A DNA stretch of 29,860 bases, from the NCBI GenBank assembly GCA_013002105.1, contig JABDKS010000295.1, forward strand, positions 1-29,860, read 5' to 3'. The stretch is from Pirellulaceae bacterium. Its GTDB lineage: Bacteria > Planctomycetota > Planctomycetia > Pirellulales > Pirellulaceae. A program made the translations under genes and the position numbers. How positions within the stretch are numbered: the stretch's first letter is position 1; every line of letters starts with the position of its first letter. The notes beneath the pieces are model-generated. The model was not told the DNA's origin and ran no database searches. It saw nothing but the letters and a program-made list of their open reading frames with translations. Shown here piece after piece: positions 12,709 to 26,874 of the stretch.

Positions 12709-13431
12709 TTGGCAAAAGGCGACCATTTTTTTGTTTGGCGACAACACCTGGGCGTTCCGTTTCAACATCACGGCATCGACATGGGCGATGGTACCGTCAT
12801 TCATTTTACGGACGGACATGGCGGTGTTGCCGGACCGGGCGTCTCGACAGCGGACTTCGTTGTGATGCAAACCGCGATCACCGTCATCACTCGTGATGGT
12901 CGTGACAGAGTACATGTCATCGAACATTCCGGTCGCTTAGAAGTCGATATGATTTTGGAACGGGCGATCAGTAAGGTTGGACGAGAAGGCTACCATCTGT
13001 TCTATGACAACTGCGAACACTTTGCGTCGTGGTGCGCCACCGGTGTCGGGCAAAGTCGACAGGTCGACGTGGCGTGCGAGCGGCTGAGCGCGGCGAGCGT
13101 GAAGGCGGTTGCCGCTGGAACTGTTCGCGTGGCAGCAAAGCTGGGTGCCAAGCGGGTGATTCGCGGCGCGAATGCTTGGTTGCTGGTTGCCGAAGCGGCT
13201 CAATGGGCTACCGAAGCAGGTGGACATCACATTGGTTTGCGCGATCCCAAGCAACGTCGCCACGCGGGCCGCGCTGTCGGCGGCATGACGGCGCTGGGCA
13301 TTGGCGCGATCGGCGGACCGGCTGGCATTGCCGTCGCCGGAACGATCTGGGTAGTCGGCGAAGTTGCCGGCGAAGCTTCAGGCGGACTTTACCGACGGAT
13401 GCGATCACAACGTGTGACCGCAGAAGGTTAA
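12709..13431 (+). CDS. LRAT-domain (NlpC/P60-fold) protein with hydrophobic C-terminus
   Basis: A 240-aa protein. Residues 1-115 match the LRAT / H-REV107 type of circularly permuted NlpC/P60 fold: MAKGDHFFVWR at the start, HHGIDMGDGTVIHF with the active-site His (H21) and a second His (H32), and the nucleophile motif NCEHFASWC (N101, C102). Family members are acyltransferases or phospholipases using a Cys-His pair. After about 115 the chain becomes helical, with Ala-rich segments (LSAASVKAVAAGTVRVAAKL) and a Gly/Ala-rich hydrophobic stretch near 185-225 that could insert into or lie on a membrane. It therefore probably acts on lipids or acyl groups at the membrane, by analogy. The substrate is unknown. 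It converges on the thioredoxin-protease gene. Confidence 0.85.
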   Translation: MAKGDHFFVWRQHLGVPFQHHGIDMGDGTVIHFTDGHGGVAGPGVSTADFVVMQTAITVITRDGRDRVHVIEHSGRLEVDMILERAISKVGREGYHLFYDNCEHFASWCATGVGQSRQVDVACERLSAASVKAVAAGTVRVAAKLGAKRVIRGANAWLLVAEAAQWATEAGGHHIGLRDPKQRRHAGRAVGGMTALGIGAIGGPAGIAVAGTIWVVGEVAGEASGGLYRRMRSQRVTAEG

Positions 13432-13501: not shown

Positions 13502-14989
13502 CTATCGGCGAGCTTGCTGCTCGATCATTTGCATCAGATCCGCGGTCGGTTGATCGAGCGTCATCACTCTGGATGAAGCGGTTGGATTGGTCCGATCACG
13601 GACAATCACGATGACTTCGCGATCATCATGGATCGGACGAGGTTGCGGAGCCGATGCGAACTTGACCGGTGCGGTGGCGGAGGCTTGAACGACGGAACCG
13701 GGTAGATTCGCGCCCGGTGGGGTTGAATGAGGCAAACTCGCCAGTCGCTCGTGCGGCGGGGCAGGTTGGGGCGTTGTCTGTCGCGGCGCGACGTTACCGG
13801 CAATCGCACCAGGTGCCGCGTACAGCTTGGACAAATTGACGCGATCGAGTTGCCACTGAATGCTGCCTGGACCGGTATAAATGCCAACGTCACCTTTATA
13901 GTCGGCCGCGTTGCAGACACCGATCAAACGACCTTGATCATCAAACAGTCCACCTCCGCTGCGCCCGTCGACCGGCGCGCCTGAGATTTCGATGTTTGAT
14001 GCGCCCAAATGACTGTTGTACTTGTCGACTCCCGTGATTCGTGTGTCACGACGTGATGGTTCGTCGCCTCGGTCGCATCCAAAACTAAAAACGCCTTGGC
14101 CGTTACGTGGCAGCAAACCTTCGCTCAGTACGGGCACCGGTTGAACGGGGAACCCTGGTCGAATCGCCACTAACGCGATGTCGCGATCATCGGCGTCATA
14201 GTCGATCACTTGCCCGAGCACGGTTTTGACTTGACCGCCCACAAACAAATCGACTTCGATTTTTCCTTGCCCCTTGTTCTCGCGAAACAGGTGACCACAT
14301 GTCAGCACCAACGCTTCTTCGCCGTGGGTGTCAATGATTGTTCCTGTTCCGGCTCCGTAACCGTGACCGTCGTGGACCTTGAGCCGAACGGTTGCGGCAC
14401 TCGCGCGTTCGATCGCGCTGGCTACCGAGACACTGGGCATCGGCTCGCTGGCGATTGGTTGATTTTGACGGGACACAAAACGCCCGTCGGTCTGAGGTGC
14501 AGCGGTGAATGTTTGCTGATGATTTTCTTGCTGAGGTGCCAGTCGTGTTCGCGGCAGTGACGGGCTTTGGGAGAAATCGCTGGGACTGCCGTCGTGCATG
14601 ATGTCACGGCGCACATTAGCACCGGTCGGGATCAACGGCCCAGACGGATTAACCGCCAAGGCGGCGCGAAGCTTGTCGGCGGTTTGCATGCCGACCAATC
14701 GTGTGACTTCGTTGCCACCGGCAACAACAACATAGGTGGGTGTTTGTCGGATTCCGTATCGAATTGCAAGATCCGATTCACGGTCGACGTCGACATGCCG
14801 AACCGGCACGCCTTGGCGTTCCAGCTGATCAATGACCGGGTTCATCGCACGGCAGGGACCGCAGCGGGCGGACGAGAAATCGATCAGCACGGCATCAGCG
14901 GCGACCGCATCATTTGCAGTCAAAGCGACCAGGGCGAGGAAAAGCGGTGTCATCGAACCCGCGATTCGCCCGAACATTCTATTCTTCAC
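13502..14989 (-). CDS. Exported thioredoxin-trypsin fusion protein
   Basis: A 495-aa protein. A signal peptide (hydrophobic 14-24, cleavage near AVAA) is followed by a thioredoxin domain, about 33-113, with the redox motif CGPC (C43, C46) and a cis-Pro motif QTPTYVVV. A polar linker of ~75 residues leads to a trypsin-like serine protease domain, about 190-385, with an apparent triad of H233 (TCGHLF), D270 (DRDIALV) and S344 ([10 protein letters not shown]). The tail (about 390-495) is Pro/Ala/Ser-rich with a final strand [10 protein letters not shown]. It starts at GTG with a perfect GGAGGGA (14995-15001) 5 nt upstream. It probably acts in the periplasm. Why disulfide chemistry and proteolysis are joined is unknown; redox-gated proteolysis, or reduction of substrates before cutting, are possibilities. 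Confidence 0.9.
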
Positions 14990-19247: not shown

Positions 19248-20375
19248 CTAGTTCGAGTTCGCTCGGGCTTCTCGCAGCATGCTGTTCATTTCGGGAACCA
19301 CCAATGACGACGGCAACGCGTAAGTGACAACGCGACCGGCTCGTGCGATGTTGATTCCGATCGCACGTCCCTTGGAATCGAGCACGGGACCGCCGCAGTC
19401 ATCCGGGTCCAGCACGGTGTCGTGCTGCATGACCTGCTCGAATCCATTAAGCCGAACACTCCGAGGCCCGTTGACCTTGGTGTCGTTTTCGGTCTCCTGC
19501 AGGATATCCATGTCGCGAATCTGCGCGTTCAGTTCCAACGTGTCACCAGCGCGAACGATCGTCAGTCGCACATTTTCGCCAGGAAACATTCCTCGCAAGG
19601 TTTGAATCACGCTCTCGCGGCTCATTTCTTGACGTCCGTTGATTGCGATGATCCGGTCATCTTTTTTGACCCCGGCCCGCTGCGCGCCGCTGTGTGGATA
19701 AACGGTTTGTACGGTCGCCATGCCATTGGGATCGTTATCCAACATCACACCCAAGCGTCCCTGATGGGCGACACGCCGCGCACGTACGCTCAACACGCCC
19801 AATCCGATGGGCCGCCCGGTACGACCGGGGGTGATCACAAAACTACCGATCGGCAAACTGTCGGTGACGAATTGAATCGGCTGCATGGGCGTCGCCGTTT
19901 CGACCTTCAGCAACGCCAAATCACTTGCACGGCGCACCGCTGCAACACGAGCTGGCAACAACCGACCATCCGACAATCGAACGCGGACCGGGTCGCCGGT
20001 CAGCTCACTGCGTTTGGTCAAGACATAGCCGTCGGATCCGACGATGGTTCCCAATGCAACCGGTCGTCCGCCGCTGAGAATTTGAGCGACCGAGGGACGT
20101 GACTTTTCGGCGATGGGGCGAACCAATGTCGTCATGTCGCCGTTGTCGCGTCGATTTGACGGTGCCAATCCAAGCCGCTGTCGTAGCCACTCCGGCGAGT
20201 GGTCGTCTTGCGCAGTTGCCGTCGGCGCGTCGTGCAATATCATCACCGACGCGATCAGTGCAACGGCGATGACGGTCAGCGCGTTCTTCGATAGTTGTCG
20301 GCAACCACGATCGGAAAAGTTTTCGCGACCGCGGTTCGTTAATGGCATCTCAATCATCGGCATATCATTTCTCAA
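19248..20375 (-). CDS. Exported trypsin-fold protein with degenerate triad and an internal PDZ domain
   Basis: A 375-aa protein with a signal peptide or anchor (about 31-55, ending TATAQ). Residues about 93-200 follow the first barrel of a DegP/HtrA-type protease: ALGTIVGSDGYVLTKRSELT, where the catalytic His is expected, has S123, and SDLALLKV keeps D152. Next, instead of the Ser loop, comes a PDZ domain (about 207-286, GRLGVMLDND ... GAQRAGVKKDDRIIAING). Only then does the second-barrel segment appear: VLDPDDCGGPVLDSKGRAIG, with C327 in the Ser position, and TYALPSSLV. So the PDZ is inserted in the protease fold and the triad is broken. It is probably a non-proteolytic binding or adaptor protein. 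The TTG start overlaps the upstream protease stop (TTGA, 20372-20375); ATGs at codons 5, 7 and 10 are alternatives. Confidence 0.85.
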   Translation of the reverse strand: MRNDMPMIEMPLTNRGRENFSDRGCRQLSKNALTVIAVALIASVMILHDAPTATAQDDHSPEWLRQRLGLAPSNRRDNGDMTTLVRPIAEKSRPSVAQILSGGRPVALGTIVGSDGYVLTKRSELTGDPVRVRLSDGRLLPARVAAVRRASDLALLKVETATPMQPIQFVTDSLPIGSFVITPGRTGRPIGLGVLSVRARRVAHQGRLGVMLDNDPNGMATVQTVYPHSGAQRAGVKKDDRIIAINGRQEMSRESVIQTLRGMFPGENVRLTIVRAGDTLELNAQIRDMDILQETENDTKVNGPRSVRLNGFEQVMQHDTVLDPDDCGGPVLDSKGRAIGINIARAGRVVTYALPSSLVVPEMNSMLREARANSN

Positions 20376-21478
20376 TCGTCAGCTCGTCCAATCTCGATGG
20401 TCAATCGCACGCGTCGGTTTTCGCGGTTGACCCAAACTCCAACGCGCTCGCCCGGCATGGTATCGGCTACCGCCGACTTAAGCGACTGAAAGTCGCTGAT
20501 CCGCACGTCTCCAAATTGCTCGACGACATCGCCCGGTATCATTCCGCCATCTGCGGCGGGCGAATCCGATCGAACGATTTTGATCTTGGCGACCGGTGAA
20601 TCGGGTTCGGCGCTGACGCCCAGTACGGGTCGAAAGCCGGGCAAGTATCCCCATGATTCGCGATTGACCAGGCGGTCCCAAGAATAGTCGTAATGATCGA
20701 TTTGCACATGCAGGTTATCCGCGACATCATTTCCAATGCGGCTGTGCACGGCAATCAACCGACCCGACAAATCAAACATCGGTCCACCACTATCACCGCC
20801 GATCAGTGCACAATCGGTAATGATCGCATCGGATCGAACCGCCAAAATACGGCCGACACGCGTCACGGGGCCACGGCCGACGTCATAGCCTCCCGGGTGT
20901 CCGGTCGCTATGCACCACATTCCCGGCACCAACTGATCGCTGGTTCCCAACGTCGCGTGCGGCCACGGTTTGCCACCATTTTGGCCGTCGTTGATCTTGA
21001 TCAATCCCGCATCCACGTTGCGATTCATCCCCAGAGTCGTTGCCATCACATTACGACCGTCCGAAAGGGTGATGATCGCTGTTTTGTTGGGTCGCATGGC
21101 CACATGTGCGGCTGTCAGAACGTAACCACTGCCTGTGATGATCACGCCACAACCTTGGGCCGGTCCGATTTTTACACTCACGGTACATGGCACCGCTGAT
21201 GCTGCTACTCGCCGCTGTTGCTGCTCCAACTTTTGTAGCTGGTCCAACGAATCAGGAATGCCACCATGTTTTAAGAGCTCGGCTAAATCGGCCAAGACAG
21301 GAACTTCGGTATCGCCGCTGCTGGGCTGATCTGCTTGAGCCTGAACCGAAATCGGCGACTCTTGGGCCAATACCGGTGAATCTCCAATCGCCCACATTCC
21401 GATCGCCAACAAAATGACAAGTGCGGCAACCACCGACCGTTGCCATGGCGAATGATAGGGTGATACAGGACGACTCAC
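20372..21478 (-). CDS. Exported trypsin-like serine protease with C-terminal PDZ domain
   Basis: A 368-aa HtrA-like protease. A GTG start with AGAGAG 5 nt upstream is followed by a signal peptide or anchor (about 15-39, ending VLAQ). The protease domain spans about 95-260, with H125 (GYVLTAAHVA), D156 (NVDAGLIKI) and S230 (GGDSGGPMFD), a complete triad. The PDZ domain is C-terminal (about 284-365, LGVSAEPDSPVAKIKIV ... GGMIPGDVVEQFGDVRI). The pre-protease segment has a short coiled-coil-like stretch (SLDQLQKLEQQQRR). It is expected in the periplasm, in protein quality control or regulated cleavage. It is translationally coupled to the degenerate paralogue downstream, suggesting that the two products form a complex or share substrates. 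Confidence 0.9.
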   Translation of the reverse strand: MSRPVSPYHSPWQRSVVAALVILLAIGMWAIGDSPVLAQESPISVQAQADQPSSGDTEVPVLADLAELLKHGGIPDSLDQLQKLEQQQRRVAASAVPCTVSVKIGPAQGCGVIITGSGYVLTAAHVAMRPNKTAIITLSDGRNVMATTLGMNRNVDAGLIKINDGQNGGKPWPHATLGTSDQLVPGMWCIATGHPGGYDVGRGPVTRVGRILAVRSDAIITDCALIGGDSGGPMFDLSGRLIAVHSRIGNDVADNLHVQIDHYDYSWDRLVNRESWGYLPGFRPVLGVSAEPDSPVAKIKIVRSDSPAADGGMIPGDVVEQFGDVRISDFQSLKSAVADTMPGERVGVWVNRENRRVRLTIEIGRADD

Positions 21479-21483
21479 AGATA

Positions 21484-21489
21484 CTCTCT
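21484..21489 (-). promoter_or_regulatory. Ribosome binding site for the GTG start of the PDZ protease
   Basis: AGAGAG on the minus strand, 5 nt before the GTG at 21478. The open frame runs 321 bp further upstream, but that part is not protease-like and this site places the signal peptide at the N-terminus. Confidence 0.6.
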
Positions 21490-21576
21490 TTAGAAAAAAC
21501 AATGTCACGTACCCGCGGAGGAACTCAATCGAGTCTTCCGCACAAGCCCAACCCTGCGACACAGGATCGCGACGCA

Positions 21577-21624
21577 TTGGTCTGATGGATCCGACCAGGA
21601 TTGGCCTGATGGACCCCAACAGGA
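21577..21624. repeat. Tandem 24-bp repeat in a divergent promoter region
   Basis: Copies 21577-21600 and 21601-21624 begin TTGGTCTGATGGATCC and TTGGCCTGATGGACCC and both end AGGA, matching at about 20 of 24 positions. They lie between the divergent PDZ protease and epimerase-like genes. They could be operator sites or a slippage duplication. Confidence 0.55.
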
Positions 21625-21673
21625 TAGGGTTGGGTGGGGTCAAGCAAAACCATTGTAGCCTCCCACCTGGATT

Positions 21674-22591
21674 TTGGAAAAAGTGGACATAAATACCGAA
21701 AAAAACCCAAAAAACGATCACAACCTCCAAGGTGTCCTGGTGGTTGGCTGTGGCTATCTGGGTCGGCGGGTCGCGGATCAATGCCGACGCGCTGGCCACC
21801 GGGTCTGGGCGACGACCCGTAGCCGCGGGCGGGCAAACGAGTTGGCGGCCAGTGGATTTGAACCAATCGTGCTGGACTGGACGGACCGACGCTCGCTCGC
21901 GGGCTTACCTCAAGTCTCGCATGTTTTGGTTGCCGTTAGCTACGATCGCTCGAGCCAGATCGACCGCTACCAATCACAGGTTGGGGGACTGAGAAACCTG
22001 CTTGCTGTTGTCGCGCCTACCGCAAAGATCTGCTACATCAGCACCACCGGCGTGTACCATCAGTGCGACGGTAGCTGGGTCGACGAAAATTCCGTCGCGC
22101 GGCCGGTGCGAGAAGGCGGCCAAGTCCATTTGCAGGCCGAGCAAGAACTCCATCGAAACCGTCCCCACGCGCCTTGGACAGTCTTGCGGCTGGCCGGAAT
22201 CTACGGGCCCAACCGTGTTCCCAGGGCAGCCGATGTGATCCATGGCCGACCCATCCAATCGCCCCAAGACGGCTACCTCAATCTGATTCATGTCGACGAC
22301 GCGGTCTCGGTTGTGCTGGCGTCGTGGCGGCAAGCAGGCCGACGTCTGTATGTGGTCAGCGATAACCAGCCCGTACTGCGGGGTGATTTCTATCGCGAAA
22401 TCGCACGACAATGTCATGTCCAGCCACCACGATTCGAGCCACCGTCACCGGCCGCACCCGTAGCCATGCGGTCAGCCAGCAACAAGCGTGTTTGGAACCG
22501 TCGGATGAAGAGCGAGCTCGTGCCGCATTTGAAGTACCCGACCTATCGCGAGGGTTTAAGGGATGTTTTGCAGCAATATCCCGGACAATGA
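21674..22591 (+). CDS. NAD(P)-binding epimerase-like protein (atypical extended SDR, YeeZ-like)
   Basis: A 305-aa Rossmann-fold protein of the extended short-chain dehydrogenase family. The nucleotide-binding loop is VVGCGYLGRRVADQCRRAG, with TTRS after beta2 as in YeeZ-type proteins. YISTTGVYHQCDG and VLRLAGIYGPNR follow, and NLIHVDDAV is the usual late motif. The Tyr of VYH is present, but the YxxxK partner Lys is not, as in atypical SDRs, so dehydrogenase activity is doubtful. There is no in-frame ATG near the start: TTG 21674, or GTG 21683 with GGA 4 nt upstream, are the candidates. It is divergent from the PDZ proteases, and its role is unknown. Confidence 0.85.
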   Translation: MEKVDINTEKNPKNDHNLQGVLVVGCGYLGRRVADQCRRAGHRVWATTRSRGRANELAASGFEPIVLDWTDRRSLAGLPQVSHVLVAVSYDRSSQIDRYQSQVGGLRNLLAVVAPTAKICYISTTGVYHQCDGSWVDENSVARPVREGGQVHLQAEQELHRNRPHAPWTVLRLAGIYGPNRVPRAADVIHGRPIQSPQDGYLNLIHVDDAVSVVLASWRQAGRRLYVVSDNQPVLRGDFYREIARQCHVQPPRFEPPSPAAPVAMRSASNKRVWNRRMKSELVPHLKYPTYREGLRDVLQQYPGQ

Positions 22592-23689: not shown

Positions 23690-24793
23690 ATGCTCCGTTT
23701 ATACCGCTGCGTTATTGCAATGGCGCTCGTCGCCTTGACCGCCCCGGTCGGCTTCGGCCAATTGGGGCAACCGATACCCATGGCGACGCCGCCTTCGATA
23801 CCCAAACCGTTGCCCGTGCAGGTCCAACCGCCCAATGAAACCGCGCGGATGCTTTCAGAGGTTCTCGATGAGGATGTCGAACTGGGTGAACTGAACACTC
23901 AGCTTGGTCATCTCGCACGTGAATTGTCTGACCAAACTGGCCTCCCGTTTTTCATTGATCAGAAAGGCATCGCGATGGCCGAATTGGGGACGGACAAATC
24001 AATTGCCGCCACTCTGCCGCGAATGCCGCTGCGATCGGCACTACGAACTGTCTTGGCCCCATTGTCTTTGCGGGCGGTCGTTCAAACCGATGGACTCGTG
24101 ATCACCGCCGACTTCACTGAATTGACTCGCCGTGGCATTGCGACCGATCAGTGGATCGATCAGCGCAACAATCGCACGTCAGCCATCACCAAAGCGTTGG
24201 ACCAGGAACAATCTGTCCGATTTATCGAAACACCACTGCAAGACGCTGTCATGCAGTTAAGCAATCAAAGTCAGATTCCGATGGTCGTCGATCGCCGTGC
24301 GCTGGAAGAGATCGGCTTGACCCCCGACACGCCGGTGGTGATGGAGATCGAATCGGTTTCGTTGCGTTCACTGCTGCGGTTGATGTTGCGTGAGTTGGAT
24401 TTGACGTACATGGTCAAAGACGAAATTTTGCAGATCACGACCATCGAAGCAGCGGAGCAGAACCTGGTGGGTCGAATCTATTTCTTAGAGGCAACGGGAT
24501 TACCGATTGGAGATCTTGGTCATGCGATCGCCGTGATCCAATCAACGATCGTCCCCGACACCTGGGAGTCCCTTGGCGGACCGTCGACGATGGTGCCGTT
24601 GCTGCAGGGTCAAGGTAATCGGCCCGCTCTGCTGATTTCAACGACCACCGACGTGCACGAACAGATCGGCGATCTGTTGCGTTTGATGCGGGAGCATCAC
24701 GTTGGCCCCGACCCAGTGGTCGACCCCCATGCCAAAGCGGAACCACCTAAAGTCCCGCGTCGCAAACCGGAACAATCCGGCGGAATGTTCTAG
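23690..24793 (+). CDS. Secreted protein with two STN-like repeats and a secretin-N-like domain
   Basis: A 367-aa exported protein (signal peptide 1-24, ending GFGQ). ATG 23690 was chosen over the TTG two codons upstream because AGG sits 7 nt before it. Two similar repeats (about 70-141 and 177-252) have the secretin short N-terminal (STN) pattern: TGLPFFID, PLRSALRTVLAPLSLRAVV and GLVITAD in the first; IPMVVDRRALEEIGL, VSLRSLLRLMLRELDLTYMV and LQITTIEAAE in the second. A third domain (about 258-336) holds IVPDTWESLGG and ALLISTTTDVHEQI, a pattern I associate with planctomycete secretin-N-like domains. There is no pore domain, so it is not a secretin. The same three domains recur in the next gene behind a sigma factor. 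It is a periplasmic or surface protein of unknown function. Confidence 0.8.
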   Translation: MLRLYRCVIAMALVALTAPVGFGQLGQPIPMATPPSIPKPLPVQVQPPNETARMLSEVLDEDVELGELNTQLGHLARELSDQTGLPFFIDQKGIAMAELGTDKSIAATLPRMPLRSALRTVLAPLSLRAVVQTDGLVITADFTELTRRGIATDQWIDQRNNRTSAITKALDQEQSVRFIETPLQDAVMQLSNQSQIPMVVDRRALEEIGLTPDTPVVMEIESVSLRSLLRLMLRELDLTYMVKDEILQITTIEAAEQNLVGRIYFLEATGLPIGDLGHAIAVIQSTIVPDTWESLGGPSTMVPLLQGQGNRPALLISTTTDVHEQIGDLLRLMREHHVGPDPVVDPHAKAEPPKVPRRKPEQSGGMF

Positions 24794-24867
24794 GTACGGA
24801 CGCGTCAATTTTGAACGAAATTCTTTGAATTTGCCGCGCGCCACGAATGGGACTTGCTGCACTATCT

Positions 24868-24874
24868 AGGTGGA
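24868..24874 (+). promoter_or_regulatory. Ribosome binding site for the sigma-factor fusion
   Basis: AGGTGGA is 5 nt upstream of the ATG at 24880. An in-frame ATG 33 bp earlier (24847) has no such site, so 24880 is preferred. Confidence 0.7.
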
Positions 24875-24879
24875 AAGCC

Positions 24880-26874
24880 ATGAACATCACCATTGAAACA
24901 CCCGAAACGTCGGCCGAGTTGCCCACAACGATTTGCGACGCCGATCTGCTGGATGCGTGGATCCGCGATCAACACGGCCAGTCGCTTGCAACGTTGATCG
25001 GGCGGTACAGCGTGATGGTGCTCAGCGTGTGTCGGCGACGCTGCCGGTCAAAATTCGACGCGGAGGACGCTTATCAAACGACTTTTTTGCATTTAGCACG
25101 CAATGCGAGCAAGATTCGTCGACCCGAGTGTTTGCCAGGTTGGTTGCATCGCGTCGCGCAGCGCGCTGCCATCGCAACACTGGACACTAAAAATATGGAT
25201 GTCCTACCCATAGTCGATCCACCCGCCCAACCTGACGACCCGTTGGATCGATTGACCCAGCGTCACGAAGCAATCGTGTTGGATGAAGAACTCGCGGATT
25301 TGCCAGAACACTACCGAGCGGCGTTGGTGATGCATGTCCTGGAAGAACGACCGCTTGCCGAAGTCGCTCATCACCTGGGCACCACGGTCGGTTCCATTCG
25401 CGGTCGGCTGCAACGAGGCAAGCAACTGTTGGCCCGTCGGCTGCGTAGCCGGGGCATCGTTCCGGTGCTGGCATTTGCTGCAGTGAAGGCCTGGACGGTC
25501 AGCGAAGCGGTCGCGACAGATACGAGTCGGACGATGATCGACTCTGCCACAAGCGGCGACTTGCCTGAACAACCCATCGACACTTCTCTGCTCGATTCTC
25601 TTCTGCGAAACGGTACCCATGCCATGAATTCTCTTTACACTCTCGGTGGCGTGCTCTGCACAGCCGCCGTCGTCACATTGTTGCTGGTGATCGATCATTC
25701 CCCGGCCGTGGGTCAACCGCAATCGCCAATCGTGATGTCCCTTCCGGCGGCACCTCCCAGTACGGATCATGGACAACTGGGGCACTTGGCCCAGATTGTC
25801 GGCGACCAACCCAAGCCGCAGCAAAATCAGCCCAGCAACAATTCGCAAGGACAATGGAATGAGGTTCAAACAGCTTCTGATCCTCCCCAATTTTGGATCA
25901 ACAAAGCGGTTGTTCCAAAACCAGAAGGCGCGATCGCTAAGCGAGCGGTCGAGGCAATGGAGACCGACGTTGACTTGAACATCGAGCCAACGACGATCGC
26001 CGATCTATCGGCCCAACTCACGACCGCGACCGGAGTTCCAGTCCTCGTCGATGAAAGGGGTGTCGCCTTTGCCAAACTGCAGCCGAGCAGCCCGATCGCA
26101 GCGTTTGATCGTTCAGCGATCCCGTTGAAAACTGCGCTCGTATTGATATTGAAACCGTACGGACTCAAAGCAGTCGTCAGCGAGGAGGGCATTACGATCA
26201 CGGCCGATCCGGCAACATTGGTTCACAAGGAGATCGGTACGGCACAGTGGATCAACATTCGTAATGACGTCGCCGAAGAGATCGCAAAAACGCTGCAGAC
26301 GAAATGTGATCTCGACTTGGTGGAAATTCCCCTAATCGAGATGGCTGAAAATATTGAGGCCAAATACTTGGTGCCCGTCAGGGTGGATGATCGCGCGCTC
26401 GAAGAGATCGGAATCTCGTACGAGCAACCCGTCTCGGGACGATTCTCGAACGTTAGCTTGGACAGCGCCCTGTCGACCATGCTTCAAGACATGGACTTAA
26501 CGCTGACGATACGCGACGAATCACTGGTGATCACGACGATCGAAGCCGCCGAGGCTTCGCTACTGAATCGAATCTATTGGCTCGAAAGCACCGGTTTCGC
26601 ACCGGGTGATTTCAATTCGATCATCCAGGTCATTCAAACAACCATTGTCCCCGACACCTGGGAGGCACTCGGCGGATCGTCGACGATGTCACCGCTGGTG
26701 ACTGGCCGACCGGCGATCCTGGTGTCGACTACCTATGACGTTCACGAGAGCATTGACAATCTGTTTCGCAGTTTGCGGCAAGCCCATTTTGGATCCGATC
26801 CCGTCATAGAGCCAGTCTTAGTCCCGGCATCGCAAGTCCTACCACGCAACCAAATGGGCGGCGGATTTATGTAA
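24880..26874 (+). CDS. Membrane-anchored ECF sigma factor fused to STN-like and secretin-N-like domains
   Basis: A 664-aa protein. The N-terminal ~190 residues are an ECF sigma factor: region 2 (about 32-99) with DAEDAYQTTFLHLAR and LPGWLHRVAQRAA, and region 4 (about 134-188) with LPEHYRAALVMHVLEERPLA, then a helix-turn-helix AHHLGTTVGSIRGRLQRGKQ. A single TM helix (LYTLGGVLCTAAVVTLLLVI, about 252-271) follows, then a Gln/Pro/Asn-rich linker. The last ~300 residues repeat the preceding gene's architecture: STN-like repeats at about 367-441 and 478-553, then IVPDTWEALGG and ILVSTTYDVHESI. The predicted topology puts the sigma domain in the cytoplasm and the repeats outside. It would be a one-protein transmembrane signalling device if the sigma domain works tethered or is released by proteolysis; neither is shown. 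The gene is 86 bp after its paralogue and ends 3 bp from a convergent gene. Confidence 0.88.
   Translation: MNITIETPETSAELPTTICDADLLDAWIRDQHGQSLATLIGRYSVMVLSVCRRRCRSKFDAEDAYQTTFLHLARNASKIRRPECLPGWLHRVAQRAAIATLDTKNMDVLPIVDPPAQPDDPLDRLTQRHEAIVLDEELADLPEHYRAALVMHVLEERPLAEVAHHLGTTVGSIRGRLQRGKQLLARRLRSRGIVPVLAFAAVKAWTVSEAVATDTSRTMIDSATSGDLPEQPIDTSLLDSLLRNGTHAMNSLYTLGGVLCTAAVVTLLLVIDHSPAVGQPQSPIVMSLPAAPPSTDHGQLGHLAQIVGDQPKPQQNQPSNNSQGQWNEVQTASDPPQFWINKAVVPKPEGAIAKRAVEAMETDVDLNIEPTTIADLSAQLTTATGVPVLVDERGVAFAKLQPSSPIAAFDRSAIPLKTALVLILKPYGLKAVVSEEGITITADPATLVHKEIGTAQWINIRNDVAEEIAKTLQTKCDLDLVEIPLIEMAENIEAKYLVPVRVDDRALEEIGISYEQPVSGRFSNVSLDSALSTMLQDMDLTLTIRDESLVITTIEAAEASLLNRIYWLESTGFAPGDFNSIIQVIQTTIVPDTWEALGGSSTMSPLVTGRPAILVSTTYDVHESIDNLFRSLRQAHFGSDPVIEPVLVPASQVLPRNQMGGGFM

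Follow-up and report, generated by a model that had tools for sequence, protein, structure and literature searches.

A predicted membrane-tethered ECF sigma factor with an STN-type outer module, and a free paralogue of that module encoded beside it, in the Pirellulaceae

How is a sigma factor controlled when it carries its own membrane anchor and no anti-sigma gene is recognised nearby, and what does a free copy of its outer half do next door? This question is raised by two tandem genes, here termed P1 and P2, in a stretch of 29,860 nucleotides from a Pirellulaceae bacterium (assembly GCA_013002105.1, contig JABDKS010000295.1, positions 1 to 29,860), which is referred to throughout as the window. 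P2 encodes an extracytoplasmic function (ECF) sigma factor joined to a transmembrane (TM) helix and three further domains, while P1, immediately upstream, encodes a protein with the same three domains and no sigma half. For ECF sigma factors with C-terminal extensions, characterisation has only begun and control without a nearby regulator gene is posed as a question in passages of PMC8103513. One-piece sensor-sigma proteins of the P2 type were seen to recur across one bacterial family, with the adjacent secreted copy in few lineages. Taken by itself, the reading of P2 as a tethered sensor is probable. The best explanation of the locus as a whole, a one-piece cell-surface-signalling sigma factor freed by proteolysis with P1 as an optional protective partner, comes near an even chance without reaching it.

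Architecture of P2 and P1

Two Pfam matches of P2 exceeded the cut-off, Sigma70_r2 with E 4.7e-10 and, with E 1.3e-10, Sigma70_r4_2; NCBIfam gave TIGR02937 (E 2.3e-20). With sigma-70 regions 2 and 4 and without region 3, P2 is classed as an ECF factor, and the blocks of both regions are conserved among homologues. The homologues were the best 120 of 144 found, with 38 of these aligned in set A1 and 106 in set A3. Outside the sigma half one TM segment was convincing, as the best 19-residue mean Kyte-Doolittle hydropathy in the TM region (244-276) exceeded 1.4 in all 106 homologues and 1.6 in 95 of them; the corresponding counts for the outer module were 12 and 2. The AlphaFold2 model of P2 (pLDDT, the predicted local distance difference test, 83.5) places STN1, STN2 and a beta-alpha-beta-beta-alpha N1-like domain beyond the TM helix, and Pfam gave an STN match to residues 516-551 with E 4.1e-5, below its cut-off.

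The segments on the two sides of the TM helix behave differently among the 106 homologues. Region 4 and the TM helix are separated by 56-58 residues (10th-90th percentile), with two conserved blocks (191-210, 0.64; 227-249, 0.61) flanking a weaker stretch (0.39), while the outer linker ranges from about 64 to 108 residues (10th-90th percentile) and has the lowest conservation, 0.27. This pattern suggests that the fixed tether is a working part of the protein, probably a built-in restraint. An [AGS]Q[FLMIV] motif, which resembles how the mature secreted protein begins, lies a median of 26 residues past the TM helix in 64 of the 106 homologues, as compared with 29.4 expected from shuffles.

The AlphaFold2 model of P1 (pLDDT 89.3) contains the same three outer domains. 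Alignment of P1 with the outer half of P2 by BLASTP gave 145 of 346 positions identical (42%, E 2e-81), with the stretches RALEEIG, TTIEAAE and IVPDTWE-LGG common to both, and the sole Pfam match of P1 was a marginal one to STN (E 0.043). A fold search with P1 as query, the result of which is extended to P2 by homology, matched the STN fold to FecR/PupR-type sigma regulators, to the signalling domains of TonB-type transducers and to the N0 domains of secretins. Among 24 listed homologues, 18 had a small-x-small-Q site like that at the likely signal-peptide cleavage point of P1. Because the homologous free copy has a signal-peptide-like N-terminus, the outer half of P2 is placed outside the membrane, and by this homology we infer that its three domains are extracytoplasmic.

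The two proteins also share their ends. P1 stops 30 residues past the N1-like domain, and both it and P2 terminate in GG-x-F/M. In the 120 sigma homologues the final residue is F or M in 98 and the end matches GG.?[FM] in 78; this end was found in 33 of 67 free proteins of 300-500 residues and in 2 of 37 shorter ones, all of these counts including some cut-off sequences. At the loci themselves it was present in 25 of 36 open reading frames (ORFs) of the family and in none of 316 neighbouring ORFs. One possibility is that the tail is a tag for a PDZ- or Prc-type protease.

An earlier note on this DNA had described the 664-residue protein as ECF regions 2 and 4, a TM helix and three outer domains, and the gene upstream as a signal peptide followed by the same domains in the same order. 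Pfam, hydropathy and AlphaFold2 agree with the first description, and BLASTP, AlphaFold2 and the presence of the named stretches with the second; the structure prediction that it had called for was run on both proteins and gave one outer architecture. It had further proposed that the secreted paralogue and the tethered sensor may bind each other or compete for a ligand, so that no anti-sigma protein would be needed. In line with the last point, Pfam scans of 26 window proteins, P1 and P2 among them, recognised no anti-sigma gene nearby, and no neighbour recurs in most of 34 sigma loci that include the window. With respect to receptors, no TonB-dependent or outer-membrane cell-surface-signalling receptor was recognised among the same 26 proteins.

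Table 1. Features of the P1-P2 locus, in window positions
Feature	Position	Strand	Description	Basis
Candidate sigma70-like promoter of P1	23585..23614	+	TTGCAC-N18-TAGATT	Weak; picked by eye, no control
P1	23690..24793	+	Secreted paralogue, 367 residues: signal peptide, STN1, STN2, N1-like, short tail	ORF, BLASTP to P2, AlphaFold2 model
P1 signal-peptide-like segment	23690..23758	+	Residues 1-23, likely cleavage between GFG and QLG	Sequence; helix 2-17 in model
P1 STN1 domain	23873..24109	+	Residues 62-140	Model; approximate boundaries
P1 STN2 domain	24206..24442	+	Residues 173-251	
P1 N1-like domain	24467..24700	+	Residues 260-337	
P1 C-terminal GGMF	24779..24790	+		
Promoter-like element of sigma gene	24836..24864	+	GCGCGC-N18-CACTA	
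P2	24880..26874	+	Membrane-tethered ECF sigma factor, 664 residues	ORF, Pfam, NCBIfam, AlphaFold2 model
P2 sigma region 2	24937..25185	+	Residues 20-102	Pfam PF04542 39-100; model
P2 sigma region 4	25240..25449	+	Residues 121-190	Pfam PF08281 134-184; model
P2 fixed-length cytoplasmic tether	25450..25620	+	Residues 191-247; candidate built-in restraint	Homologue spacing and two conserved blocks
P2 TM helix	25621..25689	+	Residues 248-270	Model; hydropathy
P2 variable extracytoplasmic linker	25690..25926	+	Residues 271-349	Length and conservation in homologues
P2 STN1 domain	25927..26205	+	Residues 350-442	Model; homology to P1
P2 STN2 domain	26302..26538	+	Residues 475-553	Pfam PF07660 516-551, sub-cut-off; model
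P2 N1-like domain	26557..26787	+	Residues 560-636	Model; homology to P1
P2 C-terminal GGGFM	26857..26871	+		

The promoter-like element of the sigma gene

A CGCGC...CACT pair was found upstream of the sigma gene in 25 of 32 regions; in three shuffles the most frequent pattern reached 3-4 of 32 each time. In a search that permitted gaps of 14-19 the spacing was 18 at all 27 distinct sigma-upstream sites, while at six other sites it varied from 15 to 19; the invariant letters of the site matrix arise by construction, since sites were picked by exact pattern, which does not apply to the spacing. At 25 of the 27 sites a long frame starts within 32 nt downstream, leaving a very short leader. The exact element, GCGCGC-N18-CACTA, precedes 22 of 34 intact sigma genes, and near variants can be read ahead of some others (G001, G011, G013 and G219). 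In 12 chosen genomes it stood at the sigma gene in 11, and there is about one copy per genome in relatives. When up to one mismatch was permitted, five exact matches were all at the sigma gene, and most of the remainder lay in long open frames or had a low matrix score. No regulon was found, because the element is not enriched beyond the sigma gene. Autoregulation by the sigma factor itself is the natural reading of the element; another regulator is also possible.

Translation of P2 most likely starts at the ATG at 24880, giving 664 residues, and not at 24847, because the promoter-like element extends to 24864. The N-termini of two listed proteins (P0006 and P0007) look as though gene callers had read through the element. 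At one locus of G191 (L137, 2145-3625) the tethered sigma gene has three internal stops and the element upstream is still exact. With respect to P1, the counterpart of its promoter candidate in one relative (L121) reads TTGCAG-N18-TAGATT, and from these two species (n=2) P1 and P2 seem to have different promoters.

Distribution and descent of the two genes

A search of 241 Pirellulaceae genomes (module match threshold E 1e-60, up to eight candidates scored per genome) gave a module match in 44, with 34 intact sigma-TM-module genes in 34 genomes; upstream sequence at some loci covered 0.2-0.5 kb before the sigma start. Among the other ten, sigma and module lie in different frames in G015 and G017, contig ends cut G014 and G195, internal stops interrupt G191, and no sigma ORF was found in G166. 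The last four (G129, G180, G192 and G194) have a free-type module with no tethered sigma detected, the G192 module being truncated at the end of its contig, and the 5.1-Mb assemblies of G192 and G194 being perhaps incomplete. At two loci of relatives (L017, 7977-10008; L015, 1865-3992) sigma part and outer module occupy different frames or separate ORFs, as in a split gene or an assembly error.

An adjacent free twin was present in one of the 34 intact loci, that of G128, where the gene order is that of the window from SmpB to two proteases. Neighbours there are 64-88% identical, and P1 and P2 are each about 49% identical to their counterparts; a protein of Planctomycetes bacterium K23_9 (P0127) is contained in the free ORF, and G128 is accordingly taken for the K23_9 chromosome. 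Five further P1-P2 pairs were deduced from matching longest-contig sizes (4968, 5280, 20127, 6224 and 2907), adjacency itself not being seen. Seven of the 34 genomes (G012, G169, G170, G171, G173, G178 and G182) have a full-length-type free module elsewhere. Because the adjacent twin occurs in just one of 34, P1 appears dispensable for P2 in general. The earlier note had suggested a search for genomes that keep the adjacent pair and held that its loss in relatives would count against it; this was half borne out, with G128 and the five deduced pairs on one side and 33 of 34 intact sigma genes on the other.

No third partner emerged, as no gene family recurs near the sigma gene in most of 34 loci compared, the window included; the most frequent neighbours were sulfatases, at 7 loci, followed at 5 loci each by an RNase III-like protein and a 318-residue protein with a weak GNT-I match. 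In an order-wide sample of 396 genomes (5 candidates scored per genome) all 25 matches at E 1e-60 were already in the family search. A contig scan with P2 alone found no relative and one with the A1 alignment gave 80 planctomycete loci, among them more distant sigma-STN fusions (e.g. L019, L026, L032-L034 and L056); viral contigs searched with P1 yielded no relative. For the free module, set A2 held 30 of 116 new proteins (116 of 182 found), and set A4 the window P1 and 52 of these. Twins missing from the protein lists mean little, because these lists are incomplete, the G128 sigma factor being missing from them.

Other proteins were observed around these genes. In one subclade a secreted-looking protein of about 240 residues is encoded just upstream of the tethered sigma gene (L004, 6934-7698; L007, 1361-2098; L008, 619-1347; L017, 6998-7696), with a Pfam EF-hand above cut-off in the L017 copy and just below in that of L004. 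A second kind of free module, ending in GGMF or GGIF, lies away from the tethered sigma gene (L132, L138, L139, L142 and L145) in five genomes (G012, G170, G173, G178 and G169), at least one of them Rhodopirellula. Short free proteins of about 250 residues (L147, L153-L159) with STN2 and N1-like domains alone occur often in the family and in most cases lack the GG-x-F tail; the eight loci examined showed scattered contexts with no shared neighbours.

P1 is, as judged from these comparisons, an old paralogue and not a recent copy. In the module tree, a quick IQ-TREE search without bootstrap for which thinning at 85% identity had left 156 of the 186 distinct modules, P1 falls in a clade of 26 rows (24 free, 2 unclear) with a Shimodaira-Hasegawa-like approximate likelihood ratio test (SH-aLRT) support of 97; this clade lies inside a 34-row set without any tethered member (31 free, 3 unclear; SH-aLRT 80), and P2 lies among the tethered modules. 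Identity within pairs (0.414) equalled that across pairs (0.416). A recent local duplication was rejected on the tree and on this equality.

Elsewhere in the window, two adjoining trypsin-PDZ (HtrA-like) genes lie near the pair on the minus strand (19248-20375 and 20372-21799). They occupy the same place in G128, and none of 28 other compared loci has them by the sigma gene in the stretch compared; they are possible site-1 proteases for the GG-x-F tag. The gene at 13505-14989 (minus strand) joins a thioredoxin domain to a trypsin-like protease domain, and that at 12709-13431 encodes a protein of the LRAT (lecithin retinol acyltransferase-like) family, here in a bacterial host.

Proposed mechanism, alternatives and known systems

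In the explanation preferred here, the cytoplasmic ECF half would be kept inactive both by its membrane anchor and by the 57 residues that separate region 4 from the TM helix, which would serve as a built-in restraint, and the outer STN-STN-N1 half would act as sensor. Regulated proteolysis would begin once a signal had altered or exposed the outer half, with a site-1 protease cutting outside and then a site-2 protease in the membrane, and the freed sigma half would transcribe its own gene from the GCGCGC-N18-CACTA promoter, giving a positive loop, together with further targets. Where P1 is kept it would dock on the outer half of P2 and most likely protect it from proteolysis, its removal or loading releasing the sigma factor. 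The model for this is the FoxA signalling domain, which shields FoxR against proteolysis and for that purpose is itself cleaved (PMC11637429). The role of a free STN partner of the FoxA-domain type is the best supported for P1, and by this analogy we propose it tentatively, at somewhat below an even chance.

Several results weigh against this explanation. The main objection to the role of P1 is that for 33 of the 34 intact tethered sigma genes no adjacent free twin was found. Distances between P1 modules and P2 modules were correlated in a mirror tree of seven pairs, of which five were deduced and one had a partial tethered module (r 0.62, with a Mantel p of 0.007). The correlation of P1 with the sigma domain was just as good (r 0.75), so that the signal agrees with common descent and does not count as evidence of binding. 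The exact element was not found for 12 of the 34 intact genes in the 350 nt examined; the 12 chosen genomes gave 15 exact matches, 11 at the sigma gene and 4 elsewhere, versus 51 for a backwards control, and with up to one mismatch five genomes gave 28 versus 128. M50 site-2-type proteases occurred in 6 of 6 genomes, yet every one of the 14 control genomes had them too, because of which their presence says nothing specific. Flanking charge gives no guide to orientation, as the net charge has a median of -2 on both sides of the TM helix and no positive-inside bias. Within P2 there was no Pfam anti-sigma match up to E 1, and none among the best 25 of 59 NCBIfam families.

It is possible, though clearly below even, that the tethered sigma factor works alone; P1 would then be an old paralogue that has its own separate role in the envelope, and the adjacency in a few lineages an inherited neighbourhood without functional coupling. 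The rarity of the adjacent twin, the four genomes with a free-type module and no tethered sigma detected, the seemingly different promoters (n=2 for P1) and a mirror-tree signal that common descent explains are all consistent with this. Against it, the P1-P2 order was kept in G128 at only about 49% identity for each protein, with five deduced pairs in addition, and P1 retains the GG-x-F tail of the tethered form, which just 2 of 37 short free proteins do.

Another possible use of the shared domains is that the outer halves of P1 and P2 form a mixed ring or oligomer in the manner of secretin N0-N1; sigma activity would then depend on assembly of this scaffold, for instance through clustering of the TM helices, and not on a soluble ligand. 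The STN2 and N1-like tandem of P1 does align to secretin N0-N1, and a G...[GAS] motif occurs in the TM region of 73 of 106 homologues (no control). We consider this rather improbable: the alignments have a root-mean-square deviation (rmsd) near 10, because of which the relative placement of the two domains is taken to differ from that in secretins, and neither P1 nor P2 has a recognised secretin barrel, with no secretin Pfam match up to E 1. Very improbable is the second option of the earlier note, that P1 is a decoy competing with the P2 sensor for one envelope ligand; the common domains in a common order would suit it, but no ligand is known here and no twin was found beside 33 of 34 intact sigma genes. 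That the C-terminal half of P2 is cytoplasmic, with two membrane passes or none and the extension acting inside the cell, is also very improbable, for although a weaker hydrophobic stretch within 190-226 exceeds 1.4 in 37 of 106 homologues and the flanking charge shows no bias, that stretch exceeds 1.6 in just 11, versus 95 for the TM helix, and the homologous free module starts like a signal peptide.

A stronger form of the preferred explanation, proteolytic release with P1 as an optional protector, can be stated, although we think it unlikely. It is a self-contained circuit from envelope to transcription, in which one protein would be receptor, anchor, restraint and sigma factor and would read a private promoter that lies at its own gene and of which a genome has roughly one copy. 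A separately encoded free STN protein with an ordinary promoter would stand in for the signalling domain of the outer-membrane receptor and, as a diffusible cap, keep the sigma factor inactive. Should P1 be a counterpart, encoded in the genome, of the cleaved FoxA domain, cell-surface signalling without an outer-membrane receptor would be possible. The family offers a concrete testable case: its one-piece sensor-sigma has a tether of fixed length and a promoter-like element that is well defined, and some lineages supply an obvious partner.

The literature matches listed included no paper on planctomycete sigma-STN fusions and none that describes a free STN twin. ECF sigma factors with membrane fusions are already in print, and passages of PMC8999054 name IutY, ECF48, ECF52 and ECF53. 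As in secretins (EscC, InvG, PilQ and GspD), the STN2 and N1-like tandem has the N0-N1 fold; unlike them, no barrel is recognised, and the module is either joined to a sigma factor or free. Like FecR, PupR and FoxR with FecA, PupB and FoxA, P2 has an STN fold, placed outside behind one TM helix, and in some lineages a candidate STN-type partner (PMC7186176; PMC11637429). It appears to differ from these regulators in having the sigma factor itself in place of the anti-sigma domain, about 57 residues between region 4 and TM helix as compared with 82 for the PupR anti-sigma domain (PMC7186176), and no recognised FecR-type juxtamembrane all-beta subdomain, for which there was no Pfam match up to E 1 and where the model has a low-confidence linker. 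ECF52 (SCO4117 of Streptomyces) is likewise an ECF sigma factor fused to a TM helix and outer sensor, with positive autoregulation suggested in passages of PMC5826349; these describe a zinc-finger and a carbohydrate-binding domain and a group exclusive to Actinobacteria, whereas P2 had no Pfam match to either domain up to E 1.

The closest comparison is with IutY (ECF243) from Pseudomonas putida, a cell-surface-signalling hybrid of sigma and anti-sigma factor, whose ECF sigma factor carries a periplasmic signalling half and is freed by Prc and RseP (PMC5411451; passages of PMC8999054). Both are single polypeptides with a cytoplasmic ECF sigma factor, a membrane anchor and an outer half of the cell-surface-signalling type, and proteolytic freeing is proposed for P2 as well. 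The authors of the IutY study speculate that an unknown component protects the protein (PMC5411451). IutY has 374 residues as compared with 664 for P2, which has two STN domains and an N1-like domain, and its partner is an outer-membrane receptor, where that of P2 would be a free secreted STN protein, in some lineages. Finally, IutY was called unique in its paper (PMC5411451), whereas the P2 type recurs within a planctomycete family.

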